Shown piece after piece: positions 11,845-29,437 of a stretch of 64,000 nt of DNA. Origin of the DNA: Prorocentrum cordatum (Eukaryota; Sar; Dinophyceae; Prorocentrales; Prorocentraceae); NCBI GenBank assembly GCA_963575745.1, contig CAUYUJ010014271.1, positions 331,320 through 395,319 of the forward strand. The letters are read 5' to 3'. The stretch's first letter is position 1; every line of letters begins with the position of its first letter. Under the pieces are notes generated by a model. The model had not been told where the DNA came from and searched no databases. It saw only the letters and a list, made by a program, of their open reading frames with translations. The translations under genes and the position numbers were made by a program.

Positions 11845-13545
11845 TTAAATCTGAGTCAACGTCTCACTGACGTGGCCTCCTGCTCTCCGCCTGAGCTCGC
11901 ATGCTGCTTTGTCTCGACTCCGGCTGGCTGAGTCTGCCTTGCGCCTCATCTTCGAGTCCCGCCTCATCGCCGCCTGACGGTCCTTGAACTCCTTCATCTC
12001 CGCGCTGGCGCTGATGTTGTACTTGTTGCTGTACACCGCCCGCCCGAGGACCTCGTCGTCCAGCGCATCTCCCGTGGTCAAAGGGTCTGCCAGCATCACG
12101 CTGGCGCCCGCCCAACGTAGCTCATCTCCACCCTTCGCCAGTAGCTGCTTCGGCGCCGCGAGCTCAGCGCCCGGGCGCTTGTCTTGGGGCGTGACCACGT
12201 CCTTGCTCAGGTGGTCCACCACGCTCTTGGCATCGCGCATCCACAGTGCGCGCGTGGATCTCCTTCGTCCGACTCTCCCACTCGGCAACGTGGAACTCGG
12301 GATCTCGACTCGAGCAACGCCGCCCTGAGCCAATCCGCCATCTCGGTGCTCTTGGCCAGCGCATGCGTCTCCGCAGCCAGGGTGCTCCGGCAAACGCGCT
12401 TCTCGACCTGTCTCTTCCGCTCCATGACGTACGTCTCCGCGTTGACGTTCTCGTCCAGTGGGGTCGTCAGACCAACCGCTCGCCCTTACTGGCCGCGGAA
12501 GGGCTCCGCCTCGAGGCCTGTCGTCCTCGCCGTGCTGCAGCGCGACGTCCTGGACATTCGCGCGCGCCGAGTCCTTGCTCGCGAACGCGCGTGCACTCTG
12601 CCAGTCCACATACCCTCGGCGACATATGACTTTCCAATCCGCAAGCCCGCGCGCCTGCTTCACTGCCTCGTTGCGCGGGAACAAGTCGCTCACGGCCGGC
12701 GACGCGAAAGATAGATCCAGTCTTGTCTGTCTCTGCAACTATGATCGACTTCCGTAGCGCCCATGTAGCATGGAAATCTCGGCTGGCGTACATGCTGCAT
12801 CCCGTTGTCGCTTCCTGTTCGGTGCGATCTGGATATGGGTGATGTTCTTGGCGCGCTACTTCTGCTCAATCTCCACGGTTCTGTCGCTGCTCTGCTCGAT
12901 CGTCTTGCCAACGTGCTGGCGCTTCAGCACCGCGTCCTTTTCAAATTCCACGAGGCTCTTGAGAGTCTCGAGGCTATCCTCGCAGTGCTCGCCGTAGCCC
13001 GCCATCAAAATGTCGTCGACGCACATCGTGCACATGCCGACCAGCTCTCCTTCATGCCACGGGTAGAACAGCGCCTGGCCCAAGGTACTCATCTTCCAAT
13101 TGCTGGTGAGAAGACTCTTGCACGCCTTCTTCCACCACCCGCGCGCGGCGTCGCCCCCGCGATTGATCGGGGCATTCGCACGCAGCAGCGATCCTTCAGG
13201 AAGAGAAGTGCCGGGTATGCCACCAGACGGTGGCCTAAGGTATAGCTCGCGATCGGTGACGCCCCCCTGCAAGTAGGCGCTCTTGGCGCCCATCTTCCGT
13301 GCCGCGCGAGCTGGCCCATCGCGACCTCCTCCACCTGATGCTGCCCAGTCCAGTGCCCTGCGCTGGGCCAGGAGGCCCCCAGTTGGCGCGCCTCGCCGGT
13401 AGTTGGAGTCCTTCTCCAGATTACCCAGCACTAAAAGTCTCGCCTTCAACTTGACGGGGAGGTTGTTCTCGTCCGTGCGCATCGCCTCGCTCTTGTCTGT
13501 GAGTACGAATCGCGTCGGCACCGCCTGCGCATGCCGCGGCAATCC
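11845..13545 (-). pseudogene. copia-1 reverse transcriptase and RNase H
   Basis: RT frame 13542-12856: KLKARLLVLGNLEKDSNYRR, APTGG, GAKSAYLQGGVTDRELYLRP, STLGQALFYPW and the catalytic MCVDDILMAGYG, the copia form of YVDD (about 13000-13030). RNase H then follows in other frames, with CRSTLAAETHALAKSTEMAD (about 12330-12400), AKSVVDHLSKDVVTPQDKR (about 12170-12230) and MLADPLTT near its end. It is interrupted by at least two frameshifts. The known role is copying element RNA into DNA in the cytoplasmic particle; this copy is broken. Confidence 0.82.
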
Positions 13546-14560: not shown

Positions 14561-14562
14561 TA

Positions 14563-14632
14563 CCCTGAGGTCCAACCGGACTATTTTTTAGTCCCGACCC
14601 TCAACATAACAACCGGACTATTTTTCTAGTCC
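14563..14632 (+). repeat. Left terminal inverted repeat with two subterminal hairpins
   Basis: The outer 11 bp CCCTGAGGTCC is followed by hairpin 1 GGACTATTTTTTAGTCC (14578-14594) and hairpin 2 GGACTATTTTTCTAGTCC (14615-14632). Over the first 32 bp, 27 positions match the inverted right end. These are candidate transposase-binding sites. Confidence 0.85.
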
Positions 14633-14985
14633 CCGACATGTGAAATATACCAAACATGTTGTTTTAGGCTAGTTCTAGAACTTGAGCGCCCGCCAAGCGC
14701 GTCGACTTATACCTGGATGCGTTTTCTCGTTTCGATATCACAAAACATCATCAATGGCACTCAACATCATCATGATCACCCTCCTCCTCCTCCTCCTCCC
14801 CCTCCTCCTCCCCACCCTCCTCCTCCGGTTCTGCGCAGCTCTCGCCCTGGCGCCGCGCATTCGTTTTAAACAGATGCAACAGTCTCAAAAGAAACGCGGA
14901 TACGATCGCGCCAGGATGCGCATCCTTGTTCATTATCTCGTTGATAGCCGTTTTGGTTTCGAGTTCTTGTGGCGTGGCACGGAGG

Positions 14986-17808
14986 ATGCCCAAGAAAGGC
15001 GCCACGGCCGCGAAGCGGCCCCCGTCCGACGCCAATGCCGACGCGCTGCTCTCCATATGGAATCGGCATATGACGGTGGATGGGTTGCCCAGGGGATTAT
15101 CCAAAGGACGGCGAGAGAAGGAGGGAGAGGAGGAGGAGGAGGAGGAGGAGGAGGAGGAGGAAGAGGGGGAAGAGGAGGATGAGGAGGAGAATGAGGAGGA
15201 GGAGGACGAGGAGAGGGAGGAGGTGGAGGAGGAGAGATGGGAGGGGGAGGAGGAGGAGGAGGAGGAGGAGGAGGAGGAGAGGAGGAGGAGGAGGAGGAGG
15301 AGGAGGAGAGAGGAGGGAGGAGGAGGAGGAGGAAAGGAGGAGGAGGATGAGGAGGAGAATGAGGAGGAGGAGGACGAGGAGAGGGAGGAGGTGGAGGAGG
15401 AGAGAGGAGGGAGGAGGGAAAGCAGGTGGGAGGGGGAGGAGGAGGAGGAGGAGGAGGAGGAGGAGGAGGAGGAGGAGGAGGAGGAGGAGGAAGAGGGGAA
15501 GAAGGAGGAGGGAGAAAAGGAGGAGGATCAGCCCAGGTTGGAGTACACAACCAACTTGCAGGAGGACATGGACAAGGAGAAGCTCGTGAAATGGCAGGCC
15601 ATGCTTTCGGAGACCATGAAGACGCTCAAGGCTGGCGGGGTCTCGCAGAGCATGGCCGAGGACCCCCCGTTCCAAACCCTTTATCTCTGACCAGAAGGCG
15701 GAGGAGGAGGAGGAGGCGGAGGAGAAGGAGGAGGAGGATGAAGAGGAGGAGGAGGAGGAGGAGGAGGAGGAGGAGGGAGGAGGAGGAGGAGGAGGAGGAG
15801 GAGGAGAGGAGGATAAGGATAAGAGAGGAGGAGGAAGAGGAGGAACAGGAGGGGCCTTTGGGTTTGACCATCTTTGGATCGCGCCCCAAAGGAAGTGATG
15901 CTCCGCGTCGCGACCATGCGCGAAGACGCGTGGAAGCTCGCGGACGCCAAGGTCGACTGGGCGCACGAACAGTCCTGGATGATTCGAGCGATGATTCGGC
16001 ATTGCTCCAAGGCGTTGTCGAGGCCGTGTGGCATGAAACGTGATGAGGAAGGAAGAGGAAGGGAGGAGGAGGAGGAGGAGGAGGAAGAGGAGGAGGAGGA
16101 GGGCGGGAGGGGGAAAGGATGAGGGAGGAGGAGGATAGGATGAGGGAGGAAGGAAGAAGGGAGGAGGAGGAGGGAGGAAGGGAGGAAGGAGGAATGGAGG
16201 ACCTGACCTCACCAGGGATCCGCCTCCGAAGTGGGCGGCGGACGCGTTCGGTGATGAGGATGGCGAGGACATGGGGCAAACTGGACGGCCTCATGTCCCT
16301 TCCCGTCATAACGCCGACCTCTTTGTCCTCGTCTGCCCCGTCCTTGGTCAAGGCCAGGACGAGGAAGACAGGGCGAAGAGGTCGACGAATGGCGGGTGGG
16401 GATGGGGAGGAGGAACGGATGAGCCCGACCCCCAGGAGGAACCGTGCCCGAAGAGAGCTCGGCCAGCGGCGGCGGCATCCTCGGCTGGTTCATCGAGTCG
16501 GCTCGCGCACGTCGACGTCAAGGAGGGTTGGAAACTCGGCTTTGAGAAAGAGCTCCAGGCGCCGACGCTCAAAACTGTCAGCACGCTGCCCATCCCGTCT
16601 GCCCTGCCCCCCCCCTCCCCTGGATCCAGGACCGCCCAAGACCGTGGGGCAAAGCAGACCAAATGGGCACCGTGCTGAAAGTGTTACGCGTCGGCGCAAG
16701 GCTGCCTGGAGAATCAAGGATTCCGACGGCACGAACGCCCAACCAGAATACGCCACCATCAAGAAAACTGCCGACGGTCCCGTGGCAACATGGCCAGACG
16801 GTTTCCTGTGGAAGGTCGGGGGCCAACGCATGCATCCATGGGCCAATAACCGAACCCAACAGTAAACTGAATGTCGAATGACACAGTGTAGATGCAGGAC
16901 TGGCGAGGGGTGTGGGGAAGGAGAAGAGGGGAGGGAGACGAGGGGAGGGAGGATCGGAAGGATGCTGGAGGAAGGAATGAGGATGAGGTTTTTCGCACTT
17001 CTCGAAGGTTGCGGGCCTCGAGGCTGACGATGCGAGCCTTGCCGATGCTGCAGTTCCAGCCGCAGCTACGCTCTTGTGGGAGGGCTCCAAAGGCGACGCG
17101 AAGGTCAAGGTGACCGTCGTGAACAACCACAAGCAGGCCAAGCAGTGGATTGTGATCTGGGAGGGGTCCTCGCAGCGTTCTCAGCTCGTCGTGAAGGGGC
17201 CCGAGGAGATTCAGAAGTACAAGGACTTCTTCGTCTCGCAGGCCAAGTTGTTCGCGGCGGGCTCCATCGACAAAGATGGCATCGAGGACAGCAAACGGAA
17301 ATGGGTCAAGGAGAACACGAAGGCGATGGCGACCCTGAAGCGTCCAGCAGCAGCAAAGCCCGCTGGTGGTGCAGGCGATGCCGACGCTGAGGTCCCTGCG
17401 AACGACCCTCAGGAAGATCAGGATGATGAGGAGGACTCCCAGGGTTCCGGTTCTGGAGATGATGGCGAACACGACGGTGAAACTGAAGACGGCGGCGACG
17501 CAGGTGATGAGCACACCGTCCTGCGAAGGCCTGCCGCTGTGACGCCACCGACGCCAGCGCCCAACGCCCCGAGTGTGCCCGCAGAGAGCCCGAAGGCTGA
17601 GTCTGCAGCGATCCCGAAGGCTCAGTCTGCAGCGATCCCGAAGGCTCAGTCTGCAGCGATCCCGAAGGCTCAGTCTGCGATCCCGAAAGCTGCGAAGTCT
17701 GTACCGTCGACTCCGCCGCCGAGGGCTCCGAGGGAGCTCGTGCAGGATGCGCCGTCACCGACGCATATCCCCGAGTGTGATCCCATCCCAGAGTCCGCGT
17801 TCGGGTGA
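14986..17808 (+). CDS. Transposon gene A: multi-exon acidic, KRPAA-rich protein
   Basis: I do not recognise a named family. The proposed first exon starts at the ATG at 14986 (MPKKGATAAKRPPSDANADA) and runs to about 15110. Further exon-like blocks are 15536-15670 (LEYTTNLQEDMDKEKLVKWQ), about 15895-16040 (VMLRVATMREDAWKLADAKV, DWAHEQSWMIRAMIRHCSKA), about 16216-16580 (DPPPKWAADAFGDEDGED, PCPKRARPAAAASSAGSSSR), about 16690-16820 (RRRKAAWRIKDSDGTNAQPE) and 17005-17808 (WEGSKGDAKVKVTVVNNHKQ, MATLKRPAAAKPAGG), ending in TGA. The C-terminal part has basic KRPAA nuclear-signal-like motifs, an acidic D/E tract and about four AIPKAQS repeats. The spaces between blocks are GGA-rich introns; exact splice sites are uncertain. 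A DNA-binding or partner role in transposition is only a guess from context. Confidence 0.5.
15115..15530 (+). repeat. GGA/GAG purine tract forming intron 1 of gene A
   Basis: About 400 bp of almost pure purine, with a 60-70-bp block (GAGGAGGAGGACGAGGAGAG) repeated near 15200 and 15370. Similar but shorter tracts fill the gaps at 15700-15850, 16050-16200 and 16905-16980, so they appear confined to introns of this gene. Confidence 0.85.
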
Positions 17809-18570
17809 AATATTCAGCCGAATGCACGTGGCTGGTCAGGCCAATGTGACCCGTCAGCGCTGCCGTCCTGGCCGCGCGCACACGGCCGAGCCCCTGCGCT
17901 CGCTGTTTTGATGCTTTCTCGTGGCGGTCACGTGGCGGCCCTCTTACCTCATTAATTGGTGGGCGGCCCCATGGAGGGGCGCAGGGTAGGGGGGGAGGAG
18001 ATGAGGGGACAGGCGCAGGAGGAGGAGCAGGAGCAGGAGAAGGAGGAGGAGCAGGAGGAGGAGGAAGCAATATTGTTTCAGACATGCATGGCGCATCTGT
18101 CTCACGCTCGGTGAGATCGAGCGGCCGATCTGGCCTCGCCTATTCGGCTGTCCGAGCTGCGCGACAGAGGCGGCGGGCTATTGCGCCAAGCAGTGCCTTT
18201 TTTCGCGAACGCCTGTGGAGTCAGAAGCAACGAGCTGAAACACACCCTGTCATGGCGAATGTTCGAATCAAACGACCCGTGGTGTTAGTCACCGAGCCAT
18301 GGAAACTCGAGCAGCCAACGAATGCAAGTATCAGTGATAGTATGTTTGATGTCGGTTTAAACCTCCTCGTCGCAACACGATGTCGTGAATGTTAGCGGTG
18401 CTTCGCAAGGGGAAACAACATATATGCTCGCCCCTGCCCCCTCCCCACAGAGCCAAACCAGACCTCCAGATATCGGTTCTCCGTGTAGAATTCTGGCTCG
18501 AGCGCGCCATCTGTTCGGACTCGCGAGAGGGGTCTTCGCCAGTGCGTCCTGAAGCATTCGCAGTGGAGCG

Positions 18571-21500
18571 ATGTCCGCATCCGACGCCGCTGCAGGCGAT
18601 CACGCTGGATCCACGGAGGTGGACGCGCTCACGCAGGCGACGCAGCATTCACATCGTCCCATCGAGCTCGATGGGAGCGGCTCGCAGTCAGCGTCTGTGG
18701 ACACCGCCGCGGCCACCATTCCCGCGGCCCTGCCGAACCTGAACGGTGGGAACTGCTTGCAGGTCTCAGCTCAGCCGTTGTCGCAAGACACACTCATGGA
18801 GATCATCCGCAAGCAAGAGGAGGCGCTCCGCCAGATGAAGGAGCAGATGGCCCAGGGGCAGCGAGACCAGCAGTCTCAGCCGCCCATGCAGATTGAGGGC
18901 TCGGCGAACGTTGCCCACCAAGCCCCCCCGCAGCCACCTTCGCCTCTGCAGCAGGTCGAGGTCGTCGAAGTGCAGGACTCCAGCCCCGAGAGCAACGGTG
19001 TCGAGCAGAACTTACCGACCGATGACGAGGAGCTGCTGCGGGCGATGGACGAGTCTGCCAAGAGCGAGGCCGAGAAGGTTGAGCAGGAGGAGAAGCTCCG
19101 TCAGGACATGAATATGGCTATCAAGCTCTCGGAGGAGGATGCGAGGAAGAAGGGGATCGAGGTGCCAGCAGACCGCGACCCAGAGGCAGCCGCGTCCACG
19201 GACCCGCAGGGGAGCAAGGTCTCACGCTTGCCGCAGCCAGAGCCAGCTAGCTCGGCAGGTTCGAGTGCGTCAGGCCAGTGCCAGGACGCTCAGGGGCCGC
19301 CGACGGCGAGCCAGGTCGAGGAGCTGCTGCAGAAGGCGGTCGCCGAGCAGAGGGAGCGCCAGCTGGAGGCCCAGGAGCAGGTGAGCGCGGGCGGCTCCAA
19401 GCGGGAGCGGCAGCCCGTGACCCCGCCACCAGCGCCCCAGAAGGATCGATGGGAAATAATGCAACACTCTGATGTCAGGGAAAGGCGAAGGAAGGAGGAT
19501 ATGAGGAGGAAATTGCCGCCTCACCGAACCTCACCGCCCAGCGGTGAGGTTCGGTGAGGTCCAGCGGTGAGGTTCGGTGAGGCGGTGAGCCAGCAGTTTT
19601 TGGGCGACCCCCAGAAAGGAGATCCCCCCGGCAGATTTGGAGACGTTGCCGTTCGAGACGCCGCCCAAGACCAGGAAGGATCACTTCTTGGCGCTGCAAG
19701 CTCGGATGAACAAGGTCGAGGACCGCCAGGTAGGATCAACTATCCCACCGACGCTGACAATTAAGCTCACTGCCAGCGGTGAGGCGTGGTGATGTGGCGA
19801 GGCTGCCGTCAGAACGGAGCTCGCAACCATCAGTCTCCAACGTCTCGCCGCTGTCGGTAGGCTTCGGTATGAGTGAGAATGCATGATCCCCCCTTTTGTA
19901 ATGTGTAGGGAGCTCAGGGGGGTGCACGAATGCGTTCATTGGCATTTGGATCTCGAGAGGACCAGCTGACACTCTCGGGCAAGGTCGACGAGCTGGCGAC
20001 CCACGCCATGCTGATGGAGTGCCTCCATTCCGACGAGCTCGGCAGCCTTGTCGAGGAGAGAGGCTTCACCGTCGAGAGCATGGATGCCAAGCACTGCGCC
20101 GTGAAGTTCGGCAGCGACGCGAAGGTCGACATGCCAGGCCAGGAGGAGGCAGTGGATGCAGCCATGGACAAGGCGCTCGACGAGCTTGACACCAGCCAGT
20201 GGAACCCGAAGGCCCAAGCAGAACACCAACTGTGGCAGCGGACTCGGGCTTCAGGTTTCAACTTCAACGCGAATGGGGCCAAGGGGAACCCGATGGCCAG
20301 TCGTTTCAGGCGGGCGTGCGAGAAGGATCCTGACGGCCTCGGCGCTGACTACAAGGCGAAGGAGGGGGACACTGATGAGGCCGCGGCGTTCCGTGCCAAG
20401 TGGGCCCGCGAGAAGTACGGCAACTACCGCGAGGGCAAGATCAAGAGGGAGACGTACACCAAGACGTCGTGGAAGCAGGGCCAATACATCCCAATTGGTA
20501 GAGTTGCGCATCTGGAAGGAGGTGGAGTTCTGGGATGGTTGCAGGCCACCGCTACAGGAGAATGGGGGAGGAGGAGGAGGACGAGGAGGAGGAGGATGAG
20601 GAGGAGGAGGAAGAGAAGGAGGAGGAGGAGGAGGAGAAGGAGGAGGAGGAGGAGGATAATATAAGATAAGACACGCTTGCGACCCATGTGCTTGTGACCT
20701 CTCTACACAGTGCAAAAAAGAAGAGCGGCCTTGTACTGCAAGAGGATCTGCGTCCGCTGTCTGTCGACATCGGTAGTCGGTCGCTCTGCAGGGGGATTCC
20801 ACTGGCCACATGCGGGGACCCCTGATGGGAGAACCTTGGGGCCCCGCCGAGGCACCATCTGTCCTGCAAAGCACTGAGAGGCGACGAGTAAACCCCTCAA
20901 AGAGTAAGTGAAGCAACGCAAAGTCGAAGCCCGTCGTGGTCTGGGCTATGTCCTGCAGACGGTCATACGAACTCGCCGACATTGGATTGTACTGCAACGC
21001 TGAAACTCCTTGAAGCCTGCTCATGATAACGCTGCTGATGGCCAGCAGCGACCGCGAGTACCACTTCACCCAAGACGATTCAATCATCAAGAGAAGGACA
21101 TTGGGGCTGCGAGGGCTACAGTGAGGCATTCGAGCAGGCGTGGATCAAGTAGCAAGAGTGGGCATCGGACGATGTGGAGTCTGCGGTCACGAAGAGGCGC
21201 CGCCTGGAAGGGCGCATGGGCACGCAGGCTGAGGGTCCAGCGCTCGCTGCGTCGGCACCCGTGGAGGACAAGGGCAATGCTGCAGTCGCGGGAGCTGGAG
21301 TGGACAAGTCGAAGACCGTCCCCATCGAGGAGGAAGCACGCACGAGCACGAAGCGGCACGCAAGTAGCAAGGAGACGGGTAGCGGCGCACCTGAGCCAGA
21401 GCCTGCAACCAAGAAGCCAAAGAGAGCAACTAAAGGTCAACATGCTCAGGCTCCACCAGAACCCAGAGCGGCGGACTCGATCAAGGAGCTCATGGTTGCC

Positions 21501-21839
21501 GCCAAGAAGACGATCAGCAAGTACCAGCAGTGCTTGAGCCAGTGTATCACGATCGAGAGGAGCATCAACAAGGACCCGAAGTGGAAGTGGGGCTCGACCG
21601 ACAGCGACGCCCAGAATCTCCTCGCTGACTACGACAAGATGAACGAGTTCCTGGCCCAGGAGAGCAACGTGAATCGGCTCATCACCGAGGACCTCGGCAA
21701 GGTGCGCAAGAGCCTCGGCGACCTCGACTTCTCGGCGGCGCTCCAGAAGCTCCAGACATTGGACGTAATGGTTCAGGGCCTGATGACTCTCTCGGGAACG
21801 GTGCAGGAGATCTTTGCTGTGAAGTGCAGCAAGCACTAA
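18571..21839 (+). CDS. Transposon gene B: multi-exon protein with two UIM-like motifs
   Basis: Exon 1 starts at ATG 18571 (MSASDAAAGDHAGSTEVDAL) and runs to about 19460. Residues 72-100 are predicted to form a helix or coil (DTLMEIIRKQEEALRQMKEQ). Residues 152-167 (DEELLRAMDESAKSE) and 171-191 (QEEKLRQDMNMAIKLSEEDA) fit the ubiquitin-interacting motif pattern of acidic, Leu, Ala, Ser, Glu. Exon 2 is about 19635-19732 (LETLPFETPPKTRKDHFLAL), ending at a CAG|GTAGG donor. Exon 3, about 19960-20520, ends with FRAKWAREKYGNYREGKIKR and QGQYIPIGRVAHLEGG. A further exon-like stretch at about 21045-21839 ends in KWKWGSTDSDAQNLLADYDK and EIFAVKCSKH, then TAA. A TAG at about 21149 in that stretch may be real damage or lie in an intron. 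I recall this protein type as common in dinoflagellates, with no assigned function. Confidence 0.55.
19519..19559. repeat. Perfect 19-bp hairpin in an intron of gene B
   Basis: CCTCACCGAACCTCACCGC, a CCA loop, then the exact inverse GCGGTGAGGTTCGGTGAGG. The right arm is repeated once more downstream (19563-19581). It belongs to the CTCACCG hairpin family also seen at 22158-22340 and 26349-26387. Confidence 0.9.
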
Positions 21840-23073
21840 TGAAGTGGCCAGCGCTGGCTACTTCGTTTTCAAGAGGCGCCGACGAGAGTCTGCGCTAGTG
21901 CTCGAGCCATCTTCTCTTTGACAATGGGGGAGGGAGGAGGGAGAGGGAAGAGGGAGGAGAGGAGGTGGTGGAGGAGAGGGAAGGGAGGAAAAGAGGAGAG
22001 AGTAGGGAAATCCAATGCAGGGTGAGGGTGCTAGGGGAGGGGAAGGGTCGGGCAGAGTCGATTGAGCCGAAGCGGAGGTGGAAATCAGACTTTTTTGAAA
22101 TTCGGGCTGCGCGCACACAGAATCAACGAAATCTCGCTGAAATCTGGACCGTCCGAAGGCTCACCGCTACCGGTGAGCCCCCCCCCCCTCACCGCCTACC
22201 GGTGAGGTTCGGTGACCCGGTGAGCCAACCACAAAACCTGTAAAAACACATGGTTTCCTGCAACCGGTGAGCCGGTGAGCCCCCCCCCAACCCCACTCAG
22301 AGGGCTCACCGCTGAGCGGTGAGATCCGGTGAGCCTCGGGATTTTCGGGGATCTTTGAAAATTTCTCGAGATTTCAATTTGTTTCTTGCGTTTTCTGGAC
22401 ATTCGCTTGAAATCTTCAGGTTTTCCAAGGTAGAGGCGTGCCCGAGGTCTGATTACATCAGCCGTAGTGCGAATCATCCTTGTCGAGCTTCCGCACGGCC
22501 GTTGTTTTCGCGCGGCAACTTGTGCATCTCGCGCTGTCACGCTTCTTTTCTTAGCTGGACATCTGCCAGGGGCTGGCTGTCATGTGACGCCCAGAGTCAC
22601 GCAGGTTGAAGGCCCGAGGAGGGAAGCAGAGTTGAACTTTAGGGAAGGGGAGGGGCACGAGATTGCTCGAACAGATGTCTGGCAACTCGATCACACGCGT
22701 TGCAGGCTGATTCTGCGTGGCGCTTATAATTTGTACGTTTGTTCACGGCGCAAGAGTGCCACGAGCGGCTAGTTCAGTTCGGGGTTCCTAGAAGTGAATC
22801 TAGGATTGGCGCTACACTATTGGCCAAACACAATAGATCGTTGTGCACCGAGTCACGTCGTTTAAAGTTCGGGGGGACGTTGCAAAAAAAACAGCAATTG
22901 TTCGGTAGGTCACGCTAGAGGGGGGTCGGGCAGGCACAGACACGCCAAACATATTTAACATCAAACAGACTGGTGATGTCGATCTGTCGTCGGCGGCCCG
23001 TCGCAACACCGAAAGGAGTGTCGGCCCAAGCGTTGCTAATTGTAGGCGCCATATTTTTTTGGCATCGTAATAC
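21840..23073. other. Spacer between transposon genes B and C, with purine tract and CTCACCG hairpins
   Basis: No gene is seen. It holds a GGGA-rich tract (21925-22040), a cluster of CTCACCG/CGGTGAG palindromes (22158-22345) and about 700 bp of mixed sequence that should include the gene C promoter. No TATA-like element stands out, as is usual in dinoflagellates. Confidence 0.6.
22158..22345. repeat. Cluster of CTCACCG / CGGTGAG hairpins
   Basis: GGCTCACCG-CTAC-CGGTGAGCC (22158-22179) is a perfect 9-bp stem. CTCACCGC-TGA-GCGGTGAG (about 22304-22322) is a perfect 8-bp stem. Further CGGTGAG words lie between them, separated by two C-runs. Confidence 0.85.
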
Positions 23074-25555
23074 ATGAAGCGGGCACGGCATTGCTTCAGG
23101 GTTGGGCGCGGCCGAGGCCGAGGCCAAGGCATATCCATCGGCACCCAGAGCGCCAGGGATGCAGGCGCTGAGCTTCTGTCTTTGATGATACGCATGTATG
23201 CAACTTGTAAATTGTCGGCAAAAGAATTTTGTTTGATGTGTCATTGGGCTCACAATGCTGGGACCCCTGGGGCCGACTTCCAACAATACGCTGTACAGCC
23301 AGACCAGCAAAGTGGTAAGTACCAAAAACACCTATCACAAGTTCTTCCTCATGCCCCCTTCATGTTCAACATCGATACGCCAGTGAATCTCAATAGGCGC
23401 CCCCGAAGGACCATCAGACAAACGCCAGTGTGTGCTGTATTTGAATCTTTAGAAGACGAACTTCAGAACGACCAAACTACCCTGGATATGCTGAATGCCG
23501 ACCCTGATGATCGAAAAGAATGTATCTTGGATTTGCCGTGCTATCAGAACCACCCCGCAGTCGCCAGTGCGATATCTAGTGGTAAGCAGTTGCCCGTGCC
23601 TCTCGCCTTCTACCTCGACGGCGTTTCGTACATGTCTTCTGCCGCTGGGCGTAATGACTCCACGCTTGGCATGTGGATTGTGAACTTGTGCTCGGGCAAA
23701 CGCCACCTCCTCTCGGTCACTAGATCGTCTGATTCCTGTCAGTGCGGCTGCCGCGGCTGGTGTACCATATTCCCCCACCTCCTAAATGCAAAGTGGCAAT
23801 TCCTCGCTATGCAACGGGGATGTCGTCCTGAGTTTCGTCACGATGGTAGTTCGTTTGAAGATGGGCATGTCTTTAAAGATCCTAAAGTTTTTGGGTATAC
23901 AGCAGCGCTCATATGGGTCAAGGGGGACTGGGCCGAACATAGCAAATCATTGGGCTTGCAATCTTGGAGTGCGGTGTTCAATCCATGCATGATGTGTGAT
24001 CTATGCGGTACCGACTTGCACTCGTGTTACGATGGGTTTGACACGAACGTGACTTGGCCTATGAGAAACGAAAACTATTATAATGACGCGTGCGTAAGGT
24101 GTGAAGTGACCGTGCTTCTGAATACTCAAGAGCACCGCAGACAGCTCTTGCGTGTACTAGCATTTCCAAAAGGTGGTAAGGGGATTCGGGGCAGACTAGC
24201 GATGAAGTCGGCAGTTGTCAATGGGGTGGAGATCCAAACAGGGGACAGACTTGAACCGTCAGAATATCTTGTAGACACGTTTCAACTCGAGACGACAGAG
24301 CTGCCAGTACTAGTTACGCTGTGGAGATCACGCCTTTCACACGATAAGAAAATAATGGATCCGATGGTACACCGTTGCCCACTTTTTTCGGATGAGTTGT
24401 CGTGCAACCCAGTTCGAAGCATCGCGATCGATAGCCTCCATATTTTCTACTTCGGGCCGGTCATGCGGTACGTGAGTGCGAGTTTATGGAGAACGGTACT
24501 GTCGAATCCATGGGGCGTCCCAGGAGGTCTTGACGATGTTGTAGAGGCAGGGGGTCGCAGGCTTCAAGGTGAATTTCTGTTTTGGCAGCAATCTCAAGGC
24601 ATACCACCTCAACAGCGAATGGGGGCCCTGACGACGAAGATGCTCGGCAAACGCAAGGGCTACACCTTGCAGGAACCATTTTTTTATACTTGCGTCTTAG
24701 TTCCTGTTCTGGGGGGAGTGGCAATGCTGGGCCGCAAAATCCAATGTTTTCGGAGATCGGGGCCGGTAAATTCTCAAGGTATTCGATGGTTCGGTGTGTT
24801 GGCGGCCATCCCCCCCCACCTCCCTTTGTCGTGATAAAATTCGGCTGTCAGAAGACGAAGCACCCTGGGAGCTCAATGTCACTGAAGGCGGCCGAAGTCG
24901 GGCACGTGCTGCCATTTGCCATCCACATTCTGCGTCAACATGGGGGTGCTCGCGTCTTTGGGCCCGAAATGATACACGGTGGAGAGACACTACAGACTCT
25001 TCTTAACCTCGTGCGCGAGCACACGTGTGTTGTTCCTCGTGCGTCGCACCAGCTGATGTTATCGTCTTACGCTGTCCACTTAAGATGCTGTAAGTTAGCA
25101 GGGATTTCCTTCGTCCCGAAACACCACCTCTCTGGGCATTTGTTTCTCAGGTTGGCAGGGTGGAGCAAACGGGCCCAAACCTCGAGCCAGGAGCTGTCAG
25201 GGGGGATGCGGAGGAAGGAGGTGGAGGGAGGATGACGGACGGAGAGAGGAGGGATGGCTGGAGGGATGGAGAGAGGGAGGGAGGGAGGGAGGGAAGGAGG
25301 GAGGCAGCGGAGGAGGAGGAGGAGGAGGATGTAGTCTTCAGCGCACTCAGGGTGGATATCCACGGAAGTCCAAAGATGTACAACTGTTTTATCGACGAGA
25401 GCTTGAACGCATCGCTCCGAGACGTCGCAAAGTACTCGCACAGGATGACATTTGAGGTTCGAGTATTTGGGCTGCTTCACCTTCAGTCGCTACTTCGAAT
25501 ATGTCCGTTCTGGCCAGTCGGGCACAACATGGTGCTCATTGCAGGTGGCAGCTAG
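23074..25555 (+). CDS. Transposon gene C: probable DDE-type transposase (about 688 residues, 3 exons)
   Basis: Exon 1 is 23074-24672 (533 codons), exon 2 24888-25150, exon 3 25351-25555, ending in TAG. Both splices keep the frame: intron 1 (215 bp) is GA-AG after CAG, and intron 2 (200 bp) is GT-AG and contains a GGA tract. Candidate acidic catalytic residues are D182 in LAFYLDGVSY, D285 in LIWVKGDWAEHS and D453 in IAIDSLHIFYFG. Cysteine clusters that may bind metal are CQCGCRGWC (about 222-230) and CMMCDLC (about 305-311). Exon 2 holds FVPKHHLSGHLFLR and exon 3 HGSPKMYNCFIDESLNASLR, the conserved end of this family as I recall it from dinoflagellate genomes. The family is abundant there and usually unnamed. 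The transposase role is inferred from the D-rich core and from lying between inverted repeats. No internal stop or frameshift is seen once the introns are removed. Confidence 0.7.
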
Positions 25556-25559
25556 TTGG

Positions 25560-26908
25560 CATCATTATCATCACCAAGTTGCTGTTGCCAGCACTCGGCG
25601 GGCTACCTCATCATGAGGCTGGGGCAGAGTGGGCTCGGAGCAGAGCCCAGATTCTCCGAGAGTCTGGCTTGGATGATGACATCGTTTCACAGGGGAGCGG
25701 CCGTGCTGTGCTCTCGCGTTCGATTGCGTTTCTCATTGAGAGCATCGCTGACATCGAGAGGACCACTGCATTCGTCGAGATATGCTCTGGCATCGGGCAC
25801 ACTGCAAGCATGATATCGGGATCACGCTTCAGAGCATTTACTTTTGATCGCAGGGATGCACCTATGTTTGAAGACATATGCTACTCGGTTCTCGGGGTGA
25901 GGAAAAATCAAGCCTAGAGTTGTTTCGGTTTTCCAGGGCTGGCAACCCTTCGAATTGATCTCGAAGGGATTGATGGGGTCATTTTCCTGTTGGTCGAGGG
26001 TGGTGTCTGTTGGCAGGGGACTGTTGTTGGCAATTTCCAGTGAAGGTTGGGCTCCTGTACTGCCTCTACCTCGTGGCTACGGTGGCCCCCAGCGGGTCCA
26101 TTCACATCTCACCCTCCAGTGTACTTCGGAGCTCTGCGTCATGTGCGCGCGCAGCGGCTGAGGCTGCGCACATGTCCCAAGTTGTGTCGGGAGGGTTTTG
26201 AACAAATCTAAACACAATGTTAGTTTTCCAGGCCTCGGGTCCAGATCAACGCATGCTTGACTCAAGAGCCATGCATCAATCGAACCGGTTTTGGATGGGA
26301 GTTGGCATTCCAGGATTACGTGAGTCTGGTGTGTAGCCCGATGAACAGCTCACCGAATCTCACCGCCAAGCGGTGAGCTTCGGTGAGCCGTCGATGGGAT
26401 CTACGCCAGACTCGCGTTCTGAGCCTCCACCCCCGAAATGTCTGATGATCCCAGGTCGTACTTGCTGTTTTTTGCCAACTTGAGGAGCGTGTTTTTCACT
26501 TTCGAGCAGCCGTCGCGCAGCTTGCTACTCAAGACAGACGTTGTCCAAGCCGTGCTCGGGCAGGTGCGAGCCGTGAGCCAATCTCTGTGGATGGGCGGAT
26601 GGGGCGGGCTGCGGCTACAACACACGGTGATCTGGAGTACGATGCCGCAGGAATTGCTGTCACAATTGCACAAAACCAAGCAGGAGGCGCTAGCTAGGGT
26701 CGGTCCTCGCAACCGTGGCCCTACCCCTCGTGCTGATGACGACTCCGATGCCGCGACAAGTCCACGTGGCGAGAGCATCACCTTGGGAGAGATTTACCCG
26801 TCCGAGTTTAGTATCAAGCTTTCTCAGCTGATTGAGAGCCTCCTGTCAGCAGATGCGCGTGGAGCGACCGCTGTCCACGCGCGTGAGATCGCAGTCCATC
26901 CCCAATAA
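25560..26908 (+). CDS. Transposon gene D: methyltransferase-like protein, multi-exon
   Basis: The first block (to about 25905) ends IADIERTTAFVEICSGIGHT, then ASMISGSRFRAFTFDRRDAP and MFEDICYSVLG. FVEICSGIGH resembles the glycine-rich SAM-binding motif I of DNA cytosine methyltransferases (DLFSGIGG-like), and FTFDRRD sits where the ribose-binding acidic residue would be. After a short putative intron, LATLRIDLEGIDGVIFLLVE continues at about 25941. The last exon, about 26438-26908, reads YLLFFANLRSVFFTFEQPSR, SLLLKTDVVQAVLGQVRAVS and ITLGEIYPSEFSIKLSQLIE before TAA. I recall this domain order (SAM-like motif, PCSS-type segment, EQP segment) from many dinoflagellate proteins. The middle PCSS-like segment is not clear here, so exons may be missed or damaged. 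Function unproven. Confidence 0.5.
26349..26387. repeat. CTCACCG-family hairpin within gene D
   Basis: CTCACCGAATCTCACCGC, CAA loop, GCGGTGAGCTTCGGTGAG: an 18-bp stem with one mismatch, the same layout as the hairpin at 19519-19559. It lies just upstream of the last exon of gene D, probably in an intron. Confidence 0.85.
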
Positions 26909-28034
26909 ACATCGGTCAATGAGAAACGGATGCAAATAACATCCCTGGGGCCCGTGCTAAATTATACTCAGCTCCGCCGCGCGTGTGCAAACACGCGCTT
27001 GCACTGGGGATGGCAAGCGAGTCAGAACAATGAATTTTTCACTCTGTTCCTCTGCGCGCTGAGATCGCGTGGAAGCACGCGCTGGCTCTGCTCTTTTTGG
27101 GTGAGCGTCGCCGCCACTCGCAACGACGCTAGCGGACAAACGAGCCTGGAGGGGAGGCGTTCGAGTAGGTGCAATATCCTCAACGAGAGGGCGCCCACTC
27201 TAGCACGTTCCCTTCCGCGCGCGTTTGTCCTTCAGCGCTGGCAATCGCCCGATTGCTCTTTGCGGAAGCCTCCAGCTACGGCCATTTTGGCCCTGGGGCA
27301 GGTAGAATATGAGAAACGAGGTGGGAAGGGAGGTTGAGGACAGGATGAGGAAGGTGAGGAGGCAGGCTGAGGATGGGTTGGATGAGGGTGGATGGCGAGG
27401 GATGACAGGCGAGGAGGGGGAGGCGACAGGAACAGGAAGAGGATGAGGAATGACGTGGGACGAGAACAGGTGAAGAGGCGGAAAGGACGATTATGGGGTT
27501 GAGTGGAAGGGTGGGGCGGGAGCCCAAACGCAAACGAACGACAAACGCTACACTGCTCGAGGATCGAGAAGCAGGCCCCAGGGCCCGACAATGCACCCGA
27601 GCCATGGCGGCTGATCAGGCCGAAGAGCGGGTCGCTCGTCGCAAACGGATCGCCTGGGACGCAGCCTACAAGGTGGTCTTTCCTACTCCTCCTCCACCTC
27701 CTGCTCCCTGCTCCTCCTTGTCATCCTGTTTCTTCTCCACTCCTTCGCTCCAGTCTGTTACCCGTCGCATGTCCTCCACCTCTGCCATATCCTTCTGCAC
27801 CGCCCTCCTCCTCCTCGGACGCAAGCCTCGTCGGCTACGGGCTCCGCAACCATGCCAATACCTGCTGGAAGTTCAATCTAAAAAGCATGGTTGCGGAGCC
27901 CGTACGCGACGAAGTTTGGTTGCCACGAATTCCTTAAGGTAAAGATGTGAAACGAGGTTCGCGACAGATGAGGCCTCGCGAAACTAGTTGCACATCTATT
28001 CCCCCTAAGACAAAACAAAACAAAACACACGTGC

Positions 28035-28065
<31 letters not shown>

Positions 28066-28815
28066 TCCTCCTCCTCCACATGGGACCCGCCAGGCACAAT
28101 GGAAGCACCTCCTAAGCCCTCTGAGGGGGGGGGGCTGAACTATTACATTAAGGAACGGCGTTGCGACAACGCCAATATGTTTTCCAGCAGCACGGGATGT
28201 CGCATGATAGTGACTGGGTTTCGCACATGTCGGAACCCGCGGGGCCCCGTGCTGACCGCATGGCCGAAGAAGAGGACCCCTAGGAAGTCATGGTGGGCTG
28301 ATTCGGTATCGCCGTCGTCATCGTCATCGTCATCGCATCGCGTTTTTTCCCTTCTCTCACGTCCTCCCCCCCATGCGACATTACATACAAAACCCACACA
28401 ACATGTCCAGGAGAGCCCACGCACACGTTTGGGGTTACGACTCCCAGCAGACACAAAAAACCCTTTAGATTACAACCTCCAAAAAACAAACGTGCCGAGC
28501 CGCGTCTCCTTCCTCACTCGCCTTGTCGCCTTTGCGTCCTGCGATGCCCTGCTCACCATTATTGTCGGTCCTGTCCGTCTGCTGTCGTCCCCTCCTCATT
28601 CTCTTCCTCCCGAGCTCCTTAGTGGTCCTGGGGCCGTCTTCTCCCCCTTCTCGTTCCTCCCTCCCTGGTCTGGTCTTCTCGCCCTCCTCTGCTCCTCCGC
28701 TTTGCGAGCCTTTCTTCTCCCCTTGCCCTTGGCTCGGCACGAATCGGCGTCTGCGGCGGGCTATAAGGAGAGGAGCGCTCGGGGAGCGGAGCAAGCGAAC
28801 GAGCGCCCTCCGCGC
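26909..28815. other. Gene-free 3' part of the DNA transposon
   Basis: No protein-like frame. It contains short palindromes (GCGCGTGT-GCAA-ACACGCGC, about 26973-26992), a purine/pyrimidine patchwork, a (CCT)n run at 28031-28075 and a long hairpin at 27836-27904. Confidence 0.6.
27836..27904. repeat. Perfect 20-bp inverted repeat with 29-nt loop
   Basis: TACGGGCTCCGCAACCATGC (27836-27855) is exactly inverted at 27885-27904. Beyond the perfect stem the flanks GCAAGCCTCGTCG and CGACGAAGTTTG still pair with mismatches, giving arms of about 35-40 nt. The shape resembles a small-RNA precursor or a foldback relic. Confidence 0.85.
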
Positions 28816-29200
28816 GCCGCCGCCGCCGCCCCCGCCGCCGCGACCTCGACGTGGTGTACGCGAAGGCTCGCCCAAGGGTTCCCCGCTTCTCTCTGCTCGC
28901 TTCTTTTCTCCTTCGCTCCCCTCATCCTCCTCCCCCCGTCTTCCTGCCCCTCCTTTCCTCCTCTCCCCCACTTTCTTCCCTCTCTCCCTTCCCTTTTCCT
29001 ATACCTCCTGTCCTCCATCCCTCCTTCACTCCTCCTCCTCCTTTTCCTCCTCCTCCTCCTCCTCCTCCCCTCCTCCTCCTCCTCCTCCTCCTCCTCCTCC
29101 TCCTCCTACTCCTCATCCCCCCTCCTCCTCCTCCTCCTCCTCCTCCTCCTCCTCCTCCTCCTCCTCCTCCTCCTCCTCCTCCTCCTCCTCCTCCCCCTTC
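28816..29200. repeat. (CCT)n pyrimidine tract near the right end of the transposon
   Basis: A CGCCGC run is followed by C/T-only sequence and about 150 bp of nearly pure CCT triplets (29035-29195). Open frames across it (poly-Ser, poly-Leu, poly-Pro, or poly-Gly on the other strand) are artefacts. Confidence 0.9.
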
Positions 29201-29364
29201 TAGCCGCTGTATACGTCTCGAGAAGCCTGAACCGTAGCGAATACCTAAGAAATCCATTGATCATCAAGCAGCGCGAAGGCATAAACAGAAAACGTCGGCA
29301 ACATACAGCCGACGTGCGACTTTTGCAGAATTTACGGAATCTAGCAAATTTCACTATTTCACCC

Positions 29365-29435
29365 GGACTAAAAAAATAGTCCCGAAGATGTAACATATCA
29401 CCCGGACTAAAAAACAGTCCCTCAGGACCTCAGGG
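29365..29435 (-). repeat. Right terminal inverted repeat with two subterminal hairpins
   Basis: Read inward on the minus strand: CCCTGAGGTCC, then GGACTGTTTTTTAGTCC (29404-29420), a 21-bp spacer, then GGACTATTTTTTTAGTCC (29365-29382). It mirrors the left end in order, spacing and sequence. Confidence 0.85.
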
Positions 29436-29437
29436 TA

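Follow-up and report, generated by a model that had tools for sequence, protein, structure and literature searches.

A large multi-gene DNA transposon with a predicted RAG1-like transposase in the dinoflagellate Prorocentrum cordatum

INTRODUCTION

Relatives of RAG1, by which vertebrates assemble their antibody genes, are known mainly from animals (Transib, ProtoRAG), and the wider CACTA-Mirage-Chapaev-Transib (CMCT) group is known from plants, fungi and animals. Transib and RAG1 are associated with a 5-bp target duplication and with CACWATG/CACAGTG ends, and CACTA elements carry short repeated, partly inverted motifs just inside their ends. One account characterizes the CMCT clade, with members in fungi, by a C(2)C motif, an H(3-4)H motif, target duplications of 2-5 bp and termini that are mostly CA..TG, and mentions an extra TET/JBP gene in some EnSpm, ESTA and Plavaka elements (PMC12730594). 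For RAG1 itself, PMC4914335 gives the triad D600, D708 and E962 and the zinc ligands C727, C730, H937 and H942. Here we describe an element within 64,000 nucleotides of Prorocentrum cordatum DNA (GenBank assembly GCA_963575745.1, contig CAUYUJ010014271.1, positions 331,320 to 395,319 of the forward strand), a stretch referred to as the window throughout. We interpret it, with a probability of about 0.9, as a DNA transposon that is autonomous and apparently young and whose DDE transposase has the RAG1/Transib/CACTA (CMCT) fold. The study followed up a sequence-only reading of the same DNA by a model, the claims of which are taken up where the results bear on them.

RESULTS

Borders of the element

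The element occupies positions 14563-29435 of the window (14,873 bp) with TA on each side, and the borders proposed by the sequence-only reading, 14561..29437, proved exact, with inverted termini and TA in place on both sides.

14561-14562, no strand: target-site duplication, left copy (TA), a single dinucleotide in six paralogous empty sites
14563-14573, plus strand: left terminal inverted repeat CCCTGAGGTCC, 11 bp, with related termini in other copies
14578-14594, no strand: left subterminal palindrome 1, GGACTATTTTTTAGTCC
14615-14632, no strand: left subterminal palindrome 2, GGACTATTTTTCTAGTCC
29365-29382, no strand: right subterminal palindrome 2
29404-29420, no strand: right subterminal palindrome 1
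29425-29435, minus strand: right terminal inverted repeat, CCCTGAGGTCC in this orientation
29436-29437, no strand: target-site duplication, right copy (TA), a single dinucleotide in six paralogous empty sites

Exact occurrences of CCCTGAGGTCC in the window number just two, the element's own termini; with up to two mismatches there are 44 against 35.1 expected, which is near chance, 8 of 100 shuffles having as many.

Copies and subfamilies

Both ends served as queries against the genome (4,128,499,153 bases in 21,875 contigs), the match counts being lower bounds. The left 139 bp gave at least 14 matches, six of them full-length at 94-100% and eight over the terminal ~72 bp at 82-86%, and the right 188 bp at least 21, comprising 16 right ends and five left ends of relatives; from both searches combined, family ends lie on at least 21 contigs. 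The ends are paired in nine copies, bounding elements of 14.4-16.6 kb, and are thus not the unrelated single repeats that might have been feared. This count covers copies with both ends in hand, and 12 others stand outside it: C15710, C13730, C15356 and C14283, with the left end alone in the fetched sequence (and N gaps in C15710, C13730 and C14283), and C20988, C6890, C18889, C159, C13460, C16822, C14111 and C3128, with one end each in hand. The flank of C14283 is common to C14592, and the two are probably the same insertion. Part of the element's interior appears twice beside a 100-N gap in C15710 (L011-L012), which is probably an assembly artefact.

Three subfamilies were read over their full length. 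Subfamily A, which includes the window copy, has termini CCCTGAGGTCC and a length of 14.4-14.9 kb (the right end of C13727 being CCCAGAGGTCC), subfamily B has termini CCCAGAGGTCC and a length of 16.6 kb, and subfamily C has termini CCCAGAGGTCT and a length of 15.6 kb; C16822 has an additional terminus more divergent than any of these. The order of conserved blocks is unchanged across the three. Summed over aligned pieces, with indels (many in simple repeats) excluded, there are 51 mismatches in 14,532 columns between the window copy and C14531, 80 in 14,255 between the window copy and C13727, 80 in 14,478 between C14531 and C13727, and 24-27 in ~16,575 among the copies of subfamily B. With 0.14-0.56% mismatches between compared copies, the family is therefore young.

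Target duplications and empty sites

The dinucleotides at the left and right borders are identical in all nine paired copies (TA, CC, AA, AA, TA, AA, AG, GT and GA), the third base agrees across the borders in just one of the nine, and left and right dinucleotides taken from mismatched pairs of copies agree in 8 of 72 comparisons. The TA flanks of the window copy therefore stand, but TA as such does not: the duplication is a mixed one of 2 bp, TA in only two of the nine copies, so that TA is not required and TA-specific insertion was rejected.

The window copy interrupts the frame of a Copia-type retrotransposon (RVT_2 match, E 2.8e-7, 30.8 bits against a Pfam cut-off of 31.6). When its flanks were joined with one TA, a single open frame ran across the junction, bar one TAG codon exactly there. 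The joined flanks had ten matches in the genome, the window's two own flanks and eight other places, all eight of which cross the junction (seven to query position 183-184, one to 136). All six of these that were fetched lack the insert, align base for base at the junction and read through it, with TG (five relatives) or AG (one) in place of TA and, as read by eye from the alignment, CAG (five) or CTC (one) opposite the TAG codon. The claimed interruption of a known protein frame is thus borne out.

Gene D, the predicted transposase

23131-25555, plus strand: gene D, transposase, exons ~23131-24660, 24837-25150 and 25351-25555
23617 and 23926, plus strand: predicted catalytic D codons of gene D, from motif positions
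20 and 23 residues after the second D, plus strand: CxxC of gene D, from motif positions
25397, plus strand: predicted catalytic E codon of gene D, from motif positions

The intron at 25151-25350 (GT..AG) was read by eye from the sequence. Gene D is under purifying selection, with ratios of nonsynonymous to synonymous differences (pN/pS) of 0.21-0.24 in exon 1, 0.40-0.42 in exon 2 and 0.22-0.37 in exon 3; because synonymous sites are near saturation in several comparisons, all ratios given here are rough. Exons D1-D3 are free of stops in the four copies compared (C14531, C13727, C13807 and C14592).

The search for gene D homologues matched 148 proteins, of which the 120 listed were surveyed for motifs, 56 of these 120 entered the structure alignment, and 105 sequences the tree. 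D164 and D271 are invariant in the protein alignment. Of the 120 proteins, 109 have the second D motif, which is followed by CxxC in 107 of these, at +20/+23 in 103. A PKxH motif occurs in 44 of the 120, and 25 of these also have an E motif further on; the E lies 20 residues past the last position of PKxHxxxH in every one of the 25, and that last position is H in 24. The motif is thus H(3)H; just 16 of the 25 have another H immediately before its first one, so that the H(4)H spacing of RAG1 is not followed strictly. The 20-residue distance from H to E appears in the window protein only once intron 25151-25350 is removed. The three subfamilies group with the EukProt protein P0001 in the tree (support 1.0), and P0002, P0003 and P0024 are their nearest neighbours (support 0.86). 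With one peptide pattern for each search, no relatives of the transposase were confirmed in viral contigs or in prokaryote genome contigs.

When a structure model of the relative P0022 was compared with the PDB, RAG1 ranked first, and no viral fold matched at E <= 0.001. Gene D is accordingly predicted from this model and the motifs to have a RAG1-like fold and a RAG1-like catalytic layout. The earlier proposal of a large multi-gene DNA transposon with a probable transposase is supported.

Subterminal palindromes

The palindromes GGACTA..TAGTCC start 15 and 52 bases inside the left terminus and 15 and 53 inside the right, so that the equal distances noticed in the sequence-only reading hold with a difference of no more than 1 bp. 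On the right, the outermost palindrome reads GGACTG..AGTCC, and the same contrast between left and right is present in subfamilies B and C. The palindromes are real, but the description of the ends as hairpin termini is too strong: the 73- and 78-nucleotide ends fold with z-scores of -1.67 and -1.35, and equally good or better folding is seen in 13 and 22 of 200 shuffles, respectively. Since several copies also have arm-to-arm mismatches, strong hairpin formation as a kept feature was rejected. In the divergent copy L042 the inner palindrome is altered in both arms, which favours a palindromic binding site. An Rfam scan gave no match at its family's gathering score. Long (GGA)n and (CCT)n tracts lie near both ends of the element (15115-15527, 15696-15852 and 29029-29198), and alignment offsets between copies suggest that the left tracts vary in length.

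Genes A, B, C and E

15529-17808, plus strand: gene A (approximate), conserved segments 15529-15663, 15886-16038, 16641-16817 and 17077-17343
18553-20596, plus strand: gene B, exons 19459-19548, ~19615-19729, ~19777-19856 and 19909-20596
21153-21839, plus strand: gene C, a single uninterrupted frame, 39-42% identical to the other subfamilies, pN/pS 0.63-0.79
25500-26908, plus strand: gene E (approximate), conserved segments 25500-25893, 26016-26180 and 26447-26878
28472-28770, no strand: conserved block with a 41-base core, apparently non-coding, 76-78% nucleotide identity to subfamilies B and C

When the window copy was compared with subfamilies B and C, five groups showed protein-level conservation, chiefly on the plus strand. 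The picture is not entirely clean, as there are also minus-strand protein-level matches between subfamilies; most lie under stronger plus-strand ones, and those with no overlapping plus-strand match are at 22176-22373 and at the right terminus. The former, matched in both subfamilies B and C, contains repeated GGTGAG-type motifs. Conserved segments of A, B, C and E are shared by all three subfamilies compared, and the element thus has about five conserved genes where four had been counted. Introns had been claimed for all genes, which holds for gene B (from a database protein) and for one intron of gene D but fails for gene C, which is uninterrupted; for A and E we infer introns. A Pfam scan of nine element frames gave nothing above the cut-off.

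Gene A, the segments of which we infer to be one gene, has pN/pS of 0.39-0.74 against the two other subfamilies. One of its short segments, which adjoins a low-complexity stretch, matches C13727 at only 60%, its best alignment containing a stop; either damage to the gene in that copy or a simple misalignment may account for this. At 16311-16388 and 16578-16678, within the region of gene A, there are inverted repeats, probably intronic (sub-threshold microRNA-like Rfam matches), which may be introner-type introns of the sort that PMC10666404 reports for P. cordatum.

The exons of gene B were read from the EukProt protein P0121, which matches exactly once introns are removed and one base is skipped after 20562. 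The last, main exon is 60-63% identical to the other subfamilies (pN/pS 0.52-0.53); upstream the frame is open from 18553, and 19018-19338 is weakly conserved and not evidently constrained (pN/pS 0.93). Homologues of gene B number four, all within one EukProt set. Its structure model, built on six sequences, is poor (predicted local distance difference test score 58.7), and no fold matched this poor model at E <= 0.001.

Gene E has pN/pS of 0.26-0.62 in its second and third segments, and it apparently begins, in another frame, within the 3' end of gene D (25456-25555). With an approximate splice as query, no homologue was found at E <= 0.001. A methyltransferase, suspected from a motif, is unsupported, there being just a conserved FVExxSGxG-like stretch and no homologue. 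The block at 28472-28770, with a 41-base core almost unchanged between subfamilies and no protein-level match in the frame tried, is possibly a promoter or regulatory site.

Database proteins and expression

Proteins in EukProt are usually transcript-derived. Besides P0121, P0122 fits gene B of subfamily C (99.5%) and P0123 gene B of subfamily B (96-100%), and P0001 is a 95.8% match to gene D of subfamily C, ending after exon 2 in other sequence without a splice to exon 3. If these four proteins are transcript-derived, three subfamilies are expressed. These near-identical products carry the EukProt label Pyramimonas sp., a green alga, and mislabelling or contamination of that set is likely. 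Further relatives under the same label, ~37-48% identical (P0010, P0016, P0032 and P0124), point to the presence, within one organism, of several similar but older transposon families. The spliced-leader 21-mer was not found in the window with up to three mismatches.

DISCUSSION

From sequence and predicted fold, we propose that the element transposes. The gene D product would bind the 11-bp ends together with the two subterminal palindromes, would use both to pair the two ends, and would cut them with its D-D-E site; the released element would then be joined to target DNA with a 2-bp stagger, repair of which would leave the 2-bp duplication. The products of A, B, C and E probably help in end binding, regulation or escape from silencing.

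Several points weigh against this interpretation. Transposition was not observed, and the empty sites that we found are paralogous, in six relatives 77-82% identical, and not the same locus in a related strain as had been suggested for a check. Not all copies are intact: C13730 has insertions inside exon 1 of gene D, and C15356 departs from the family sequence at element position 11947. The protein modelled was P0022, 37% identical over 86% of the query, and not the window protein; a profile search of PDB sequences found neither RAG1 nor Transib, and a scan of 56 members yielded no Pfam transposase at E <= 1. Since solved structures exist for few relatives, the first rank of RAG1 may partly reflect the content of the PDB.

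That the locus is an assembly artefact, or a host gene cluster lying between chance short repeats, might be thought from the 100-N gaps in three of ten fetched copies, one of which seems duplicated at its gap, but this is hardly credible given complete, gap-free, near-identical copies at unrelated places, each with its own 2-bp duplication, and target relatives that lack the interruption. The TA on both sides of the window copy recalls an element that targets TA, such as a relative of Tc1/mariner or Harbinger, a reading refuted by the other dinucleotides duplicated in seven of the nine copies and further disfavoured by the predicted match to the RAG1 fold; we regard it as extremely improbable. 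Large size and several genes would suit a viral insertion or a self-synthesizing, Maverick-like element, yet the lack of Pfam matches above cut-off in the nine frames, of transposase relatives in viral contigs (one search pattern) and of a viral fold match at E <= 0.001, together with duplications of 2 bp, leaves next to no likelihood for such an origin.

If the interpretation as a RAG1-fold transposon is correct, a large family in microbial eukaryotes whose zinc and catalytic residues are spaced almost as in RAG1 would widen the pool for studying the origin of the recombinase fold. The P. cordatum genome gains a defined, young and probably autonomous element, which suggests that such a transposon can retain about five genes, of which at least some are spliced.

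Comparison with RAG1 and the CMCT lineages defines the position of the element more closely. CxxC lies at +19/+22 in RAG1 and +20/+23 in the gene D family, and the distance from the last H to E is 20 residues in both (H942 to E962 in RAG1), whereas the duplication length and ends of Transib and RAG1 are not matched by 2 bp and CCC..GGG. Among the hallmarks of the CMCT clade, gene D appears, from prediction and motif, to have the DDE triad in an RNase H fold; C(2)C lies between the second D and E, H(3-4)H lies before E (24 of the 25 proteins with an E motif have PKxHxxxH) and the duplication is within 2-5 bp (2 bp in all nine copies), but the termini of the copies read are CCC..GGG and not 5'-CA..TG-3'. 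The element could be a divergent member of a named lineage (EnSpm/CACTA, Mirage, ESTA, Plavaka or Lanisha), as the TA duplications in two of nine copies, which recall ESTA, might indicate. We think this possible, though on balance improbable: ESTA duplicates TA and other dinucleotides are found in seven of the nine copies, EnSpm/CACTA has CAC..GTG ends and a 3-bp duplication, the CCC..GGG termini depart from the usual CA..TG, and no Pfam transposase was matched, these lineages being set apart here by descriptions and not by reference sequences. The palindromes resemble the subterminal repeats of CACTA, but the element has just two per end, at nearly fixed spacing. From CACTA/EnSpm, Mirage, Chapaev, Plavaka, ESTA and Lanisha alike it differs in its mixed 2-bp duplication and the lack of a Pfam match, and it adds about four accessory genes with no named family. 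A description of the element was not found in the openly licensed literature searched, which is weak evidence of absence. As for the claim that no such combination is known, no named lineage was matched, but by fold and motifs the element stands in or near the known CACTA/RAG1/Transib kind. We tentatively put at a little under even odds a new lineage of superfamily rank: eukaryotic cut-and-paste elements widespread in metagenomes, probably with microbial-eukaryote hosts, in units of 14-17 kb with 2-bp duplications, about four co-conserved accessory genes and a transposase closer to the RAG1 core than to any other solved enzyme. For the present, the element is best filed as a member of the RAG1/CACTA kind, with a fair chance of being a separate lineage.

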